Assembly: GCF_030145145.1 (NCBI RefSeq) | Contig: NZ_JAQYWD010000006.1 | Coordinates: forward strand, 62,001-126,000 | Origin: Desulfobacula sp. | GTDB lineage: Bacteria; Desulfobacterota; Desulfobacteria; Desulfobacterales; Desulfobacteraceae | Direction of reading: 5' to 3' | DNA length: 64,000 nucleotides | Shown: positions 38,008-43,914 of the stretch, one piece after another | Numbering within the stretch: the stretch's first letter is position 1 | Layout: each line of letters opens with the position of its first letter | Notes under the pieces: model-generated | What the model saw: only the letters and a program-made list of their open reading frames with translations | What the model was told of the DNA's origin: nothing | The model's database searches: none | Translations under genes and position numbers: made by a program

Positions 38008-38805
38008 TTATTTTTCCCATTGAGTGAAAACAATCCCTCCATTTTTTTTAACCGCTTTAAACGGGAGGCCGGCGCGAATTCCCTGACCCACTTTTTCCCT
38101 GTCTGTCACCACGGAGCCGCAAAGATAGTCTGCCCCGTGGTCGAACAACGCAGGGGACACCGGGGTGGTGGGGCCGATAATCACGATGGTGGCCTGGGGT
38201 GCCCGGGACAGGAACCAGGCCATGCTGCGGGTTAAAAGGGCGGTCCCTGTAACAGCGAAGACCTCCAGTTCGGCCAGCACATTTTCCCATTGATCCCGGG
38301 GAACAGCGTTGGGGAGATCCCTTAATTCAAACAAATGAAAGGTGCCCACGCGGTCTTTTAATGCGTCCACAAAAGGGAATTCTCCCACAAGTCCAGTGAT
38401 TTTATCTTTGCCGAGCCTGGCGATCAGATCATCCGCCGGAAAATTCGACGGTTCAACCTGATTCGGGTCCGGGGCATTGCCGGCATTCAATGCGGCAAAC
38501 CCAAGAGAAATGCCAAAAGGAGACGGTTTGCGAATCAATCCGACCACGTCTTTGACCGGTTTGCCAACCATTTGATGTTCCAGATCCTTTTCGTGTTCCC
38601 GGGGACTTGCCCCCAACAGGGAGGAGAGCCCCATGCGGCCCCCGGCCGTCACTGCAATGAATTTGGGGCCTGCGATGATGTCTTCCACAACGGCATCCGG
38701 CCGGATAATGGATGACAGGATGCTGTCTGCAAGGGCTTTTTCTTCCCCTTCAAGGGGGCGGTCAGGAACAGTATTTGAGGGTGGGGTGCAGGAATAGGTG
38801 CTCAT
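38008..38805 (-). CDS. DUF364/DUF4213 protein
   Basis: The 265-residue protein has an N-terminal DUF4213-like part (AVTAGGRMGLSSLLG, FGISLGFAALNAGNAP) and a C-terminal DUF364 Rossmann-like part (VGEFPFVDALKDRVGTFHLF, ELEVFAVTGTALLTRSMAWF, IIGPTTPVSPALFDHGADYL). The family is predicted to bind or chelate heavy metal and occurs near metal-cofactor genes; no activity is proven. AAGGAAACCCAAT precedes the ATG. It lies 89 bases downstream of the radical-SAM maturase and may be co-transcribed. Confidence 0.83.
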   Translation of the reverse strand: MSTYSCTPPSNTVPDRPLEGEEKALADSILSSIIRPDAVVEDIIAGPKFIAVTAGGRMGLSSLLGASPREHEKDLEHQMVGKPVKDVVGLIRKPSPFGISLGFAALNAGNAPDPNQVEPSNFPADDLIARLGKDKITGLVGEFPFVDALKDRVGTFHLFELRDLPNAVPRDQWENVLAELEVFAVTGTALLTRSMAWFLSRAPQATIVIIGPTTPVSPALFDHGADYLCGSVVTDREKVGQGIRAGLPFKAVKKNGGIVFTQWEK

Positions 38806-38894: not shown

Positions 38895-40508
38895 TCAACC
38901 CTGAAAAAAACAATATGGATCCTTCCGGGTAAACACATCCAGGCTGTAACTGTGGGCGGCGGCCATGCATCCCCTGCAGACCAGGTTGAGCCGGCAGGAA
39001 CCGCAGTCGTCAGGTCCTTTCCGGTATCGCTCGGCAATATCCGAGTGGTATATTTCTGCCAATGACTGCCGGGTGATGTCGCCGATGGGTGAAGGGAATT
39101 TTCGGCAGGCATGCACCTCTCCCGTGGCCAGAACACTGACAAAGTTAAAGGCGGCGCCACATCCATAACCGGTGCATCCGCCGAACAGCGGGGATTGGTT
39201 TTTGTGAAGGAGGATGTTGAACAAGTTGTCTTTCAGCTGGAAGACAGGATGGGTTTCAGCGGCGTGGGCATAGGTTTCAAGGAAATCGCTGTACGTGTCC
39301 GGATCCGTCATGATGAGGTTTGCCCCTTCCCCCATCAGGGAAAGCCGGTTAAAGGTAAACAGGTCTACGCGGTCTTTGAGATATTCGCCCAGGGGGATCA
39401 CCTGGTCCAGATTATCCCGGGTCAGGGTCAGCATGACCTGGGAGTAAATACCCGTTTGCCGGAGGATGTCCAGAAAAGCCAGTATCCGTTGAAAATGTCC
39501 TTTTCCGCGCATATAGTCATTGTGGGGCTCAAGGCCTTCCAGGCTCACCTGATAGAACGAAGGCACCTGGATGGCCATGAGAGAGTCAATCTTATCCCGG
39601 GTTGTCGGATTGCCCAGAATGCCAATGAAGAACCCCCGGTCCGAGGCTTCCCGGTACAACCGGTGAAAATTGGTATGCAGCAGGGGATTGCCGCCGGTGA
39701 AAGAAACCTGTCCGAACAGGTGATGGGTGTGGCAGAAATCGTACAGGCTGTCCAGAATGGCGATTTCCCGGGACAGGGTCAGCGGTTCACAGGGCGTGCG
39801 GTCATAACAGTGGCGGCAGTGAAGATCACAGGCCTGGGTAATATGCCATTGCAGGGCAAATACCCTGGCAGTTCTGAAGGCGGCCGGTACAGATTCACTG
39901 TCAATGGCGGCCTTTGTGGGATCCCATTGGCATGTCCTAACGATGCCGGGTTTCGGCCCCAGAAGGATGCCCCTGTCCAGCGCCCGAAGAATAGCGCTGT
40001 TAATGGTGGCAATAGGCGTACCAGCCAGGTCTGCCACCTGTTCCGGTTTCAGGTTTTCCATGGTTATTTTCAAAGCCAGCAGGTCCTGGCGGGTGACCGG
40101 TTGCACCATTGGTTTGCTTTTAATGGGGTCCGGCCAGACCATGACCTGTTCATTCCCTTTCACAGGCAGATGTCCCTGGATGTCACCGTTCAAACGTGCT
40201 GCCAGATGTTTCCAGGTGTTTGAAAAAATCATCAGTCCGGGGTTGATGACACGATGGTCTGAATAGGGATCCATACGGATGAAGCGGTTGGCAAGTTTGA
40301 AGGCATGCCCTTCCATGGCCGCCAGCTCGGGAAGATAGGCCGGCAGGTTGAACTTTTTTGTGTTTTTCTGGAGGGCTAGTACAAAAGCTTCCACAGCGTC
40401 GGTTGTGGCGGCCATCTCCCGGAACAGGTCATCATCCATGCATTGCCGGGTGGCAGGAAAGATTTTGGGGTCCCTTAGAAGTATGTCTGTGACTGTTTTG
40501 TGCATCAT
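38895..40508 (-). CDS. sbtM: Radical SAM/SPASM peptide maturase, SbtM-like
   Basis: The protein has 537 residues. Residues 1-210 are an N-terminal extension with a winged-helix-like part (LKPEQVADLAGTPIATINSA). The radical SAM motif is Cys227, Cys231, Cys234 (TQACDLHCRHCYD); VSFTGGNPLLHTNF is the SAM-binding region. SPASM-type Cys follow: CTGYGCGAAF, GEVHACRKF, CGSCRLNLVCRGCM and a final C near the end, for auxiliary 4Fe-4S clusters. The length and layout fit the 'selenobiotic' peptide maturase family (SbtM, named from memory). The peptide gene with two UGA codons lies 160 bases upstream, matching the family's arrangement. Confidence 0.83.
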   Translation of the reverse strand: MMHKTVTDILLRDPKIFPATRQCMDDDLFREMAATTDAVEAFVLALQKNTKKFNLPAYLPELAAMEGHAFKLANRFIRMDPYSDHRVINPGLMIFSNTWKHLAARLNGDIQGHLPVKGNEQVMVWPDPIKSKPMVQPVTRQDLLALKITMENLKPEQVADLAGTPIATINSAILRALDRGILLGPKPGIVRTCQWDPTKAAIDSESVPAAFRTARVFALQWHITQACDLHCRHCYDRTPCEPLTLSREIAILDSLYDFCHTHHLFGQVSFTGGNPLLHTNFHRLYREASDRGFFIGILGNPTTRDKIDSLMAIQVPSFYQVSLEGLEPHNDYMRGKGHFQRILAFLDILRQTGIYSQVMLTLTRDNLDQVIPLGEYLKDRVDLFTFNRLSLMGEGANLIMTDPDTYSDFLETYAHAAETHPVFQLKDNLFNILLHKNQSPLFGGCTGYGCGAAFNFVSVLATGEVHACRKFPSPIGDITRQSLAEIYHSDIAERYRKGPDDCGSCRLNLVCRGCMAAAHSYSLDVFTRKDPYCFFQG

Positions 40509-40529
40509 ATCCCACTTCAGGTTACCGCT

Positions 40530-40576
40530 AAAAAATAAGGCCCCGCATGCCAGCCATCATAAAGCACACAGGCCTT
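40530..40576 (-). terminator. Intrinsic terminator between peptide and maturase genes
   Basis: On the minus strand AAGGCC (40576-40571) pairs with GGCCTT (40542-40537), with further GTGTGC/GCATGC pairing inside, followed by ATTTTTT. It ends about 22 bases before the maturase ATG. Partial read-through would give much more peptide than enzyme. Confidence 0.6.
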
Positions 40577-40597
40577 TCCTGTTTCTATTTCAATAGT

Positions 40598-40631
40598 CGG
40601 GCTTTGAAACTGCCGAAAGGTTCAAAGCCCG
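40598..40631 (-). terminator. Strong hairpin after the selenopeptide gene
   Basis: CGGGCTTTGAA and TTCAAAGCCCG are perfect 11-base arms with a 12-base loop, 37 bases after the peptide stop. There is no T-run, so it may stabilise the short mRNA rather than terminate. Confidence 0.5.
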
Positions 40632-40645
40632 GGAAATTGTTAATC

Positions 40646-40660
40646 AATGCCAACGGCACT
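40646..40660 (-). promoter_or_regulatory. Second SECIS-like hairpin (for UGA codon 61)
   Basis: After UGA (40676-40674) and 13 bases, AGTGCC-GTT-GGCATT forms a six-pair stem (one G-U) with a short GTT loop. Its distance is right for a bacterial SECIS, but the loop is small and the hairpin lies beyond the stop codon, so support is weaker than for the first. Confidence 0.35.
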
Positions 40661-40667
40661 GACGATA

Positions 40668-40856
40668 CTAGCCTCAGCCACTCTTTGCCGGGGGTTTTTG
40701 TTCCGCTTCCGTCTGCTGTGTTTCGGTGCTACCTGCACCGGCTTTTTTCTCAGCACTTCAGGCGGTTGAGCATCCAAAGCCTGTCAGTCCTGCACCGGCA
40801 ACCAATCCGGCAATGCTCAGGCCGGCCAGGAGTTTTTTTAAATCGGTTTTGTCCAT
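40668..40856 (-). CDS. sbtA: Selenocysteine peptide precursor, SbtA-like
   Basis: From an ATG at 40856, preceded by a perfect AGGAGGA, 62 codons run to TAG at 40668 with two in-frame UGA codons: codon 33 (40760-40758) and codon 61 (40676-40674), read here as selenocysteine (U). The leader is MDKTDLKKLLAGLSIAGL plus a Gly/Ala-rich hydrophobic stretch; then GFGCSTAUSAEKK, a Glu/Gln/Thr-rich linker, and KPPAKSGUG at the end. A hairpin with an AGGTA loop starts 18 bases after the first UGA. Standard gene callers miss it because of the UGAs. It is directly upstream of the SPASM maturase, so it is the likely substrate (RiPP precursor). Sec incorporation is inferred; selA/B/C/D are not in the window. 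Confidence 0.8.
40724..40740 (-). promoter_or_regulatory. SECIS-like hairpin for UGA codon 33
   Basis: CGGTGC-AGGTA-GCACCG is a perfect six-pair stem with a five-base loop containing GGU, beginning 18 bases after UGA. Bacterial SECIS elements need a short stem with GU in the loop within about 16-37 bases of UGA; the stem and loop here are very like the upper stem-loop of the E. coli fdhF SECIS (from memory). Confidence 0.65.
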
Positions 40857-41248: not shown

Positions 41249-41716
41249 ATGATTTCGTTAACAGTAAATGGCAAAAATTATACCTTAGATGTTCCTGAAG
41301 ATGTTACATTACTATGGGTTCTGAGGGATCATTTACACCTCACCGGAACCAAATTCAGTTGTGGTATTGGGGAGTGTGGGTCCTGCACGGTGCTAATTGA
41401 CGGTGAACCGGAAAGATCGTGTATGATGACCGCCGTGGATGCTGACGGCGCAAACATTACGACCATTGAAGGACTGCCCGAAGATCATCCGGTAAAACGG
41501 GCCTGGATTGAAGAACAGGTGGTTCAATGCGGGTATTGCCAGCCCGGCACCATCATGCAGGTTGCGGGCCTCCTCGCAAAAAACAAAAATCCTAACCCCC
41601 AGGAGATTTTCGATTCCATGGACAATATTATCTGTCGCTGTGGCACCTATCAGCGCATGAAAAAAGGGGTTGAAACGGCCATCAACATCATGCAAAAGGA
41701 GGGCTCGTCATCATGA
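41249..41716 (+). CDS. 2Fe-2S subunit of molybdenum hydroxylase (IorA-like)
   Basis: The 155-residue protein has two 2Fe-2S sites: CGIGECGSCTVLIDG plus C at 'RSCMM' (plant-ferredoxin type) and CGYCQPGTIMQ plus CRCGTYQRM (helical type). This is the small subunit of xanthine-oxidase-family enzymes such as isoquinoline 1-oxidoreductase and aldehyde dehydrogenase. It passes electrons from the Mo site. It has no signal peptide, so it would be exported folded with its TAT partner. AAAAAGGAG precedes the start; the stop overlaps the next ATG by four bases. Confidence 0.9.
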   Translation: MISLTVNGKNYTLDVPEDVTLLWVLRDHLHLTGTKFSCGIGECGSCTVLIDGEPERSCMMTAVDADGANITTIEGLPEDHPVKRAWIEEQVVQCGYCQPGTIMQVAGLLAKNKNPNPQEIFDSMDNIICRCGTYQRMKKGVETAINIMQKEGSSS

Positions 41717-43914
41717 AAAAAAATATGACACGCCGTACGTTTCTCAAGAACTCTCTGGCCGCTTCCGGTTTGACCATTGCCGCCTATGTTACCCCCCTGG
41801 GAATCCAACTGGTCAACGCGGCCACCAAAACGGGTGCCATGGATGGGTTCAAGCCCAGTGCATTTTATCAGATTACCCCGGATAACCTTATCAAGGTCAT
41901 GGTCCCCAATTCCGAGATGGGCCAGGGCGTGAAGACCGCCCTTCCCATGATCATTGCCGATGAACTGGAAGCGGATTGGGATCAGCTTGAAATTATTCAG
42001 GCCCCGGCTGCAGAAGAATTTAAAAATCCCATTTTACACAATCAACTGACGGTTGCCAGCGCCAGTGTCAGGGGATTTTACTGGCCCCTGCGAAAGGCGG
42101 GGGCTGCCGGTCGAGCTGTCTTGATAGACGCGGCTGCCCGAGAATGGAAAGTTCCGGCATCCCATTGCCAGGCCATCAAGGGGACAGTGGTCAACCTTAA
42201 ATCCGGTGCCGGCTTTACCTATGGTGAATTAAGCCTCAATGCCGCCAAACTGCCGGTTCCCCAGGATCCGGTTCTTAAAAAACCGAGTGAATTCAGATAT
42301 ATGGGCAAGGCCATGCCCCGGGTCGACATTCCGGAAAAGGTCAGCGGCAAGGCCGTTTTCGGTTTGGACGTGGATCTGCCGGACCTGCATTATGCGGTTT
42401 TGTCCCGCCCGCCGGCGTATGGCGCCAAACATCTATCGTTTAATGCAGATGCTGCCATGGCCATTAAAGGGGTAAAAAAGGTGGTTCCCACACCCAGGGG
42501 AATTGCGGTTGTGGCAGAGACCCTGGATGCTGCGGAGAAAGGAAGGCATGCCCTGGACACGAAATGGGATAAGGGATCTCATCCCGGGATGGACACGGCA
42601 TCCATTGAATCAAGTTTTATCAAGGATCTTGAAAAACCGGGCGCCAATGTGATTACAAGGGGCAATGTCAAAACGGCATTCAATGCGGCATCAAAAATCC
42701 ACGAGGCAACCTACTACATTCCGTGTATCTCCCATGCCACTATGGAACCCCAGACCTGCACGGCAGATGTCCGGGCAGACCAATGCGATATCTATGCCCC
42801 TACCCAGGGCCAGACATTGGGTCACATGGTGGCAACCCAAATATCAGGATTGCCACCGGAAAAGGTTTATCTTCACACCACACTACTGGGGTGCGGACTC
42901 GGCAGAAGGGCCAGGCCGGATCAGATTGTCGAGGCGACCATTGCTTCCAAGGTTTCGGGAAAGCCCGTCAAGGTGGTTTATTCCCGGGAAGAGGACATTA
43001 AAACAGACTATTTCAGGTCGGCCATGGCCCACAGAATCAAAGCAGGTCTGGATGACCGCAATCAGATGATCGTCTGGGACCATAAAGTGGCCAGCCTGTC
43101 TCTGAAAAAGCATATGGGGGCTGAGGTCAAAAACGGTATTGATGGGTATTGTCTGTGGGGATTATGGGATTCACCCAAGTCACCTGCCAAGGCAAACATG
43201 ACCTACACGTTTCCGAATTTTTCCATCCACCTGGTTTTGTCCGATCTGCCCATTCCGGTGGCACCTTTTCGATCCGTTCAAAATGCTGTAAATGCCTTTG
43301 CCACAGAGTCTTTCATGGACGAGATGGCCCATATGGCCGGCAAAGACCCCCTTAATTTTCGTCTGGAAAACCTGACGGGGCATATGCGCGCCAGCCGGGT
43401 TCTGGAAAGCGTGGCCCTTAACTCGAACTGGGGAAACCCCCTGCCGGACGGATGGGGCCGGGGCATTGCCCAGCACAGTAGTTTCGGTACAAACATTGCC
43501 CAGGTGGCAGAGGTGTCAGTGGACAAGAAGACCGGCATCATTCAGGTTCACCGGGTGGATGTGGCGGTGGACTGCGGCCCGGTGGTCAATCCGGATCCCC
43601 TGGAGGCCCAGATACAGGGGGCTGTCGTCTTAGGCGTGAGCACCGCCCTGTTCGAGGAGGTGCAGTTTGCCGATGGCGGTGTGGCATCAGGGAATTTTGA
43701 TGATTATCGAATCGCCACGATGAGTGAATCACCCGATGTTAACGTTCATATTGTAAAAAGCAATGAGGATATCGGTGGCATCGGTGAACCGGGCATCATG
43801 CCGTTGGCCCCGGCGGTGGCCAATGCGGTTTTCAATGCCACCGGCGGACGGCTGCGGCGGATGCCGTTTACCCCTGAACGGGTTTTAGCTGCAATAAAGG
43901 CCGCATCCGTATAG
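41713..43914 (+). CDS. Molybdopterin subunit of exported Mo hydroxylase (IorB-like)
   Basis: The 733-residue protein has a twin-arginine signal (MTRRTFLKNSLAASGLTIAA), so it matures in the cytoplasm and moves to the periplasm. It has xanthine-dehydrogenase-type Mo domains in duplicated order as in IorB: VMVPNSEMGQGVKTALPMII near residue 75, VSGKAVFGLDVDLPDLHYAV, a central SHATMEPQTCTADV, and a late IGGIGEPGIMPLAPAVANAV (with the conserved Glu). It oxidises an aldehyde or N-heterocycle by hydroxylation with water. The electron acceptor is not encoded next door (no cytochrome c subunit). Confidence 0.9.
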   Translation: MKKNMTRRTFLKNSLAASGLTIAAYVTPLGIQLVNAATKTGAMDGFKPSAFYQITPDNLIKVMVPNSEMGQGVKTALPMIIADELEADWDQLEIIQAPAAEEFKNPILHNQLTVASASVRGFYWPLRKAGAAGRAVLIDAAAREWKVPASHCQAIKGTVVNLKSGAGFTYGELSLNAAKLPVPQDPVLKKPSEFRYMGKAMPRVDIPEKVSGKAVFGLDVDLPDLHYAVLSRPPAYGAKHLSFNADAAMAIKGVKKVVPTPRGIAVVAETLDAAEKGRHALDTKWDKGSHPGMDTASIESSFIKDLEKPGANVITRGNVKTAFNAASKIHEATYYIPCISHATMEPQTCTADVRADQCDIYAPTQGQTLGHMVATQISGLPPEKVYLHTTLLGCGLGRRARPDQIVEATIASKVSGKPVKVVYSREEDIKTDYFRSAMAHRIKAGLDDRNQMIVWDHKVASLSLKKHMGAEVKNGIDGYCLWGLWDSPKSPAKANMTYTFPNFSIHLVLSDLPIPVAPFRSVQNAVNAFATESFMDEMAHMAGKDPLNFRLENLTGHMRASRVLESVALNSNWGNPLPDGWGRGIAQHSSFGTNIAQVAEVSVDKKTGIIQVHRVDVAVDCGPVVNPDPLEAQIQGAVVLGVSTALFEEVQFADGGVASGNFDDYRIATMSESPDVNVHIVKSNEDIGGIGEPGIMPLAPAVANAVFNATGGRLRRMPFTPERVLAAIKAASV

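Follow-up and report, generated by a model that had tools for sequence, protein, structure and literature searches.

What does a gene pair make when ordinary gene calling breaks its first member at a UGA codon, and what would the product be for? The pair in question, sbtA and sbtM, lies on the minus strand of the window, our name for the whole stretch of 64,000 nucleotides analysed here, which comes from contig NZ_JAQYWD010000006.1 of the sulfate reducer Desulfobacula sp. We find that it is a two-gene cassette and a new member of the known SbtA/SbtM family, with a selenocysteine (Sec)-containing precursor peptide encoded beside a radical S-adenosylmethionine (SAM) enzyme. Our best reading of the whole, reached by analogy, is a radical-SAM, selenium-using counterpart of the bufferin and captophorin peptides, which would be exported or lipidated and is probably metal-binding.

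sbtA is a 62-codon open reading frame (ORF; 40856–40668, minus strand) in which codons 33 and 61 are UGA and the stop is UAG; AGGAGGA precedes its ATG at a spacing of four bases. Read with TGA as U, its translation is MDKTDLKKLLAGLSIAGLVAGAGLTGFGCSTAUSAEKKAGAGSTETQQTEAEQKPPAKSGUG, with the C-terminal motif SGUG, for which the family context is G/S-U-G/S. The gene next to it, sbtM (40508–38895, minus strand), encodes 537 residues. An initial annotation of the window had described this arrangement, with the frame broken at UGA33; it is confirmed here, and under translation table 11 the small frame does end at UGA33, where a 37-residue open frame is seen. It had also named SbtA and SbtM as TIGR04081 and TIGR04082, rightly: both models exist, SbtA scores 48.3 bits against a cut-off of 30.5 (on a 27-position leader model that covers residues 1–25 only) and SbtM 665.8 bits against 350 (on a full-length model, residues 16–534), each being the one match above its cut-off in the whole genome. 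The precursor gene has these features:

40668–40856, minus strand: sbtA, Sec-containing precursor peptide, 62 residues, stop codon UAG (TIGR04081; translation with TGA as U).
40773–40856, minus strand: conserved leader, residues 1–28, read as a recognition leader and putative lipoprotein-type export signal (hidden Markov model match to residues 1–25; lipobox-type pattern up to Cys29).
40770–40772, minus strand: Cys29, lipidation site predicted from a pattern match.
40758–40760, minus strand: UGA33, read as Sec33 (translation; conservation in kin).
40724–40740, minus strand: hairpin of UGA33 resembling a selenocysteine insertion sequence (SECIS), loop AGGUA, within the coding sequence and over the GAGST codons (hairpin scoring; folding).
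40674–40676, minus strand: UGA61, read as Sec61 of the C-terminal SGUG motif (translation; conservation in kin).
40643–40663, minus strand: SECIS-like hairpin of UGA61, loop GUU, 3′ of the UAG stop (hairpin scoring; folding).

We set the cassette beside its relatives in a family survey, whose loci carry L numbers. Of 395 genomes from the phylum, 39 carry an SbtM gene, as do 5 of 38 relatives (the genome itself counted in both) and 2 of 23 genomes of the genus; 286 stretches of a wider collection of genome contigs matched SbtM, and 80 of these formed the analysed set. The leader profile matched in 98 of 114 SbtM loci and gave no match in the other 16, of which, under a looser inspection, L113 showed a Cys-type precursor and L115 a fragment. 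Some pairs of loci represent a single region, such as L021/L055, L018/L077, L025/L107 and L043/L124. Several Sec per precursor are found in many family members, the window SbtA having two, and there are Cys-only members (L054, L062, L081, L082, L090 and L113). One locus, L026, holds both a Sec-rich and a Cys-only SbtA-like precursor with a single SbtM. A plasmid search with the precursor, Sec given as Cys, returned no match.

The interpretation given by the initial annotation is upheld, its claims about decoding included. The genome has one above-cut-off match each for selA, selB, selD and tRNA-Sec, and SECIS-like hairpins follow both codons: CGGUGC-AGGUA-GCACCG after UGA33 and, past the UAG stop, GUCAGUGCC-GUU-GGCAUUGAU after UGA61. 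They score 17 and 20 on a hairpin scale of our own (threshold 14; loop start 14–26 nucleotides after the codon). Among 94 distinct precursors, a score of at least 14 was reached at 186 of 215 Sec motif sites versus 6 of 70 Cys motif sites, with 24 of 254 random codons and about 5% of 1,075 shuffles as controls; the corresponding Mann–Whitney p values (6e-26 for Sec versus Cys, 8e-58 for Sec versus random) are too small, as related sequences are not independent. By the rule for bacterial SECIS loops, GG or GU was present in the loop of 184 of the 186 Sec-site hairpins versus 4 of 24 random-codon hairpins, and the loop started most commonly 20 nucleotides after the UGA (71 of 186). Folding energy was dropped as a marker, Sec sites being no lower than Cys sites or random codons; a hairpin at the right place, not its energy, separates the classes. 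Scanned against Rfam at gathering thresholds, the window gave no match.

Both UGAs and the frame between them are kept in L042, L043, L044 and L124 (three distinct kin, L043 and L124 being identical in sequence), whose peptides end in SGUS, SSUG and SGUG, and the closest kin by SbtM identity (69–72%) have both codons in frame. Window and kin differ mostly at third positions over codons 1–32, with a weaker third-position bias and less constraint over codons 34–60; the pair closing the loop of the UGA61 hairpin is C–G in the window and A–U in L042, L043 and L044. The positions of the UGAs are conserved, and SECIS-like hairpins go with them. From the loci we selected 34 genomes: selB scored above its cut-off in every one of the 27 not classed as Cys-only (a Sec precursor was detected in 25, and no precursor in the other two, L078 and L105) and in none of the seven Cys-only genomes. 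Of these seven, the genome of L081 has two selB-like pieces that may be a split gene, and others show partial matches, which may belong to different elongation factors. A UGA after the Cys repeats of L054, L071 and L113 was taken as a stop. We consider the recurring peptide motif GAGST/SAVST over the hairpin best read as a hairpin imprint: SECIS-like hairpins inside coding repeats would make it a feature of the RNA, not of the peptide.

Other uses of UGA were seen beside these. UGA pairs five codons apart occur in L025/L107 (codons 35/40; the same precursor), L028 (35/40) and L026 (98/103); they appear to share one downstream hairpin, or the hairpin contains the second UGA, and so depart from the usual picture of one hairpin per UGA. 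In precursors ending in SGUSU (L042, L061, L066, L068, L070, L074, L084, L085 and L092) the UGAs are one codon apart, and the second is probably a true stop; in L042 the loop starts 19 nucleotides after the first and 13 after the second. The selD gene of the genome (G000:C74:71040-71963) has one in-frame TGA, and SelD is probably a selenoprotein itself.

SbtM matches PF04055 and PF13186, and its three radical-SAM cysteines are invariant in all 23 aligned SbtM proteins, whereas about 190 residues at the N terminus of the window protein match no Pfam family. A conserved pattern in this region, PPYLxDLARLE...NPxL...VLVW...DLLALK, resembled by eye the DUF2063 proteins that accompany MNIO enzymes and carry a recognition element (RRE) for ribosomally synthesized and post-translationally modified peptides (RiPPs), which prompted the tests reported here. 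The features of sbtM are:

38895–40508, minus strand: sbtM, radical SAM/SPASM maturase, 537 residues (TIGR04082; PF04055, PF13186).
39936–40469, minus strand: SbtM residues 14–191, homologous to the DUF2063-RRE partner proteins (PME type 1) of MNIO enzymes (profile, model and structure search).
39807–39830, minus strand: radical-SAM cluster motif CDLHCRHC, with C227, C231 and C234 (alignment of 23 SbtM proteins).
38994–39161, minus strand: SPASM domain, residues 450–505 (PF13186).

Aligned by hhalign, 27 SbtM N-domains and five DUF2063 proteins (which came from 4 of 99 genomes) matched with a probability of 98.5% and an E value of 3.4e-15 over 173 columns. All five single DUF2063 proteins scored 41.3 to 86.2 against the N-domain profile, compared with at most 21.65 for 200 unrelated ORFs of similar length and at most 20.2 for 20 shuffles. 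An AlphaFold2 model of the domain (mean predicted local distance difference test score 87.3) has helices, then three strands with a short helix between the first two, then three helices, and this strand–helix order is the one by which RRE domains are defined (PMC12710340). With this model, Foldseek retrieved as its top PDB match 3DEE (NGO1945, a DUF2063-RRE protein; E 6.1e-5), followed by chain A of TglHI (E 1.1e-3 and 2.3e-3), the rest being at E 0.39 or worse. The profile, searched against the 395 genomes (E values per genome; up to the best eight candidates scored in each), matched in the 39 SbtM genomes and in seven others. The best match other than SbtM is a DUF2063 protein (E 9.2e-14); of the seven, the four examined all have PF09836 and adjoin a PF05114 MNIO gene, one more is the L128 DUF2063 protein, and the remaining two are short matches. 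The MNIO assignment started from a sequence motif that we took to be that of the family and was checked with Pfam (PF05114). We conclude that SbtM is a PME1-like docking domain fused to a radical-SAM enzyme, its N-terminal domain being homologous to the DUF2063-RRE partners. This homology looks new: neither the shared recognition domain nor the export reading was found among the openly licensed papers listed for SbtM and for DUF2063 or captophorin with radical SAM. The study that is said to be the source of the thio(seleno)oxazole chemistry of SbtM, by Lewis et al. in 2021, may already contain the domain relation.

The SbtA leader also looks like an export signal. Its build is lysines, then a hydrophobic stretch, then a lipoprotein-type cleavage pattern (lipobox pattern PS51257) in 47 of 97 precursors, against a mean of 7.0 and a maximum of 14 over 500 rounds in which residues 11–40 were shuffled; it tells against the weight of these counts that they are not independent, the family being related by descent. 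The cysteine is numbered 29 in 34 of the 47. In many other precursors an AHA- or AQA-like site ends the hydrophobic stretch, and a crude signal-peptidase-I pattern was uninformative, having matched nearly every remaining precursor. What had been described as a RiPP leader is borne out as such by the TIGR04081 match, to which the resemblance to an export signal is an addition. In L099 and L125, which are the same precursor and count as one observation, codon 29 is a UGA at the place of the lipobox cysteine (LSAU), which would put Sec at a lipidation site.

Taken as a whole, a five-step reading of sbtA–sbtM seems to us probable. Our confidence is high for steps 1–3 (Sec decoding, docking and oxazole formation) and fair for step 4 (export and lipid anchoring), which is predicted from the leader; step 5 (soft-metal binding) is a tentative extension by analogy. 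First, SelB would insert Sec at UGA33 and UGA61 with the aid of one hairpin within the gene and another just past its stop. Second, the DUF2063/RRE-like domain of SbtM would, by homology, dock the precursor as the separate MNIO partners do. Third, the radical-SAM/SPASM part would take four hydrogens at [SGT]-[GSA]-Sec/Cys-[GS] sites, giving selenooxazoles or thiooxazoles. The last expectation comes from in vitro work on another SbtM, for which a review (PMC11002830) reports that the enzyme strips four hydrogens off its Cys and Sec substrates and that the Cys product is a thiooxazole by nuclear magnetic resonance; in excerpts of two further papers, modified SbtMa appears among thiooxazole compounds of about 305 nm (PMC12668002) and as a thiooxazole reference (PMC12538549). 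Fourth, the leader would send the peptide into general secretion, where signal peptidase II (here) or I (in other members) would release a product that in this case may be anchored by Cys29. Fifth, the exported oxazole selenols or thiols might bind a soft metal, as the copper-binding 5-thiooxazole bufferins and captophorins do. Since SbtM is a PME1-like domain fused to a radical-SAM enzyme, an exported metal-binding selenopeptide is the best-supported working model.

Several observations weigh against this reading. The folding energies of the window hairpins are unremarkable against shuffles (z −1.87 for UGA33 and −0.60 for UGA61), and mean energies are −13.3 at Sec sites, −13.3 at Cys sites and −14.6 at random codons; the case for the window hairpins rests on position, loop and recurrence across the family, not on folding energy. 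The context of Sec33, TAUSA, is not the commonest in the family. PF09836 is matched by none of 23 SbtM proteins and PF22106 by one (E 0.12), a PDB sequence search with the N-domain profile gave three matches at E 0.53–1.7, none of them DUF2063, and pairwise BLASTP of the window domain with the closest DUF2063 protein found nothing significant. The window lipobox, TGFGC, is weak and fits the loose pattern only, and 50 of the 97 precursors are without the pattern. In the neighbour clusters and the downstream Pfam scan described below, no metal gene is clearly recurrent, and the minority distribution of SbtM marks its function as dispensable.

Gene neighbourhoods, in many cases with short flanks, were clustered for 68 of the 80 loci, using ORFs of at least 70 residues named by eye. 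Six clusters recur in at least five loci. The largest (11 loci) lies on the opposite strand over the position of sbtA, and we took it for an antisense artefact; the others (8, 6, 5, 5 and 5 loci) resemble a sensor kinase, a GGDEF protein, MsrA, an RND efflux pump and a glycosyltransferase. These five hold no tight position, and none occurs in more than 8 of the 68. Among the six clusters we recognised no dedicated exporter, no leader protease and no immunity gene; a precursor that carries its own export signal would account for the lack of a recurring export or maturation gene. A Pfam scan of 35 downstream genes (that of the window and 34 of the 46 on the same strand) found no family in more than four; among the downstream families listed (25 of 44), ArsP and DUF364 occur once each.

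A gene of the DUF364/DUF4213 type (Pfam: putative heavy-metal chelation) lies in the window at 38008–38805, on the same strand and 89 bases 3′ of sbtM; judged from their ORFs, it is not the downstream gene in the three kin loci. On the other side, divergent from sbtA and on the opposite strand, 41249–43914 holds a molybdenum hydroxylase-like unit of two genes, for iron–sulfur and Mo-binding subunits, which fall below the cut-offs of specific models. Between the two cassette genes there is one further feature:

40598–40631, minus strand: strong intergenic hairpin between sbtA and sbtM (−19.7 kcal/mol, z −4.35).

It begins with GGGCTTTG, common to kin, is not listed as a terminator and may control the relative amounts of precursor and enzyme.

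Four other accounts of the cassette have to be weighed. The peptide might serve redox chemistry, its exported selenol or thiol sites reducing peroxides or disulfides of the envelope and being tuned or protected by the oxazole. Redox sites are where Sec is typically found, and in 5 of 68 loci the surroundings of sbtM include the cluster whose representative reads as MsrA-like; the sites, however, stand in Gly/Ser repeats with no evident fold, as judged from sequence, and oxazole formation would use up the free Cys or Sec side-chain environment. We regard this role as unlikely.

We also think it unlikely that the modified peptide is a secreted antimicrobial, a selenobacteriocin, although a selenoproteome table in PMC13188914, also used in excerpt, carries the entry 'Selenobacteriocin TIGR04081 SGUG'. 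RiPPs are often antimicrobial and the patchy distribution of SbtM would fit, but no companion gene for immunity, dedicated export or leader cleavage was recognised among the six recurring neighbour clusters, the 35 downstream genes scanned have no Pfam family in more than four, and the lipobox pattern of nearly half of the precursors would hold the product at the membrane.

An exported multi-Sec peptide could instead store or carry selenium, as selenoprotein P does in animals. The several Sec of many precursors would suit this, as would selB in all 25 sampled genomes with a detected Sec precursor, but the existence of Cys-only members means that selenium itself is not essential to the function, and the window SbtA holds only two Sec; we judge this account improbable. 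That there is no selenopeptide at all, the frame ending at UGA33 to leave a 32-residue peptide and a chance remainder, is very improbable: the weak folding energies and the lower third-position bias of codons 34–60 would agree with it, but kin share the two UGAs, the intervening frame and a C-terminal SGUG, SSUG or SGUS, and the family pattern of Sec sites and hairpins and the split in selB stand against it.

We therefore return to the exported, metal-binding selenopeptide as the preferred reading. The initial annotation had called product and purpose not well described; this no longer holds for the chemistry, which is published, and stands for the purpose, the open literature that we searched having yielded no text on a biological role of SbtA-type thio(seleno)oxazole peptides. 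A docking domain common to copper-binding MNIO peptides offers a concrete and testable role, soft-metal binding outside the cytoplasm, and an export signal in the leader offers a route that needs no dedicated transporter. With a chance somewhat short of even, SbtA/SbtM may be the anaerobes' version of the bufferin/captophorin metallophores, with a shared DUF2063-RRE module, radical SAM in place of the multinuclear iron enzyme, the same azole chemistry on peptides that are exported or lipid-anchored, and selenium to tighten soft-metal binding. If so, two unrelated catalysts built around one recognition module would have arrived independently at one class of product, and two unrelated enzyme families would meet in one chemistry.

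The cassette can be compared with several known systems. It belongs with SbtA/SbtM itself, passing both models, with Sec in SGUG and adjacent genes; it is set apart by its short length, its two Sec, one of them at an atypical site (TAUSA), and a cysteine like that of a lipobox. The maturases of the ACGX system, PapB and StsB share the radical SAM/SPASM catalytic core, but belong to other models, whose NCBIfam matches here are weaker and far below cut-offs. DAG-RiPPs, in the excerpts of PMC12636315 used, resemble SbtA as modified peptides with a lipoprotein-type signal and a Cys anchor, but lipidation of those MNIO products was seen by mass spectrometry, whereas for SbtA it is predicted from a sequence pattern.

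The MNIO systems of bufferins, oxazolins and captophorins (MNIO PF05114 with the PME1 DUF2063-RRE partner) have a homologous partner domain, which in SbtM is fused to the enzyme and diverged. Excerpts of the work on them (PMC12452194, PMC12538549, PMC12668002 and PMC12636315) describe precursor signals of the Sec secretion pathway or lipoprotein type, DUF2063-RRE partners, copper binding and products that are 5-thiooxazoles by some assignments. The signals (PMC12452194, PMC12636315) may have a parallel in SbtA, for which there is a pattern match, and both groups have a small repeated motif with Gly after Cys, SG-U-G in SbtA and EGKCG in bufferins and captophorins. The thiooxazole product absorbs near 305 nm like modified SbtMa (PMC12668002), so that the likeness of product between SbtM and MNIO systems is already in print. 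No DoxX or sigma factor gene was recognised among the six sbt neighbour clusters, no model search aimed at such genes having been made. The catalytic domain of SbtM is radical SAM/SPASM, not MNIO PF05114, and SbtA uses selenocysteine; because the modifying gene is radical SAM, sbtA–sbtM is not filed as an MNIO system, although the two have the recognition domain in common.

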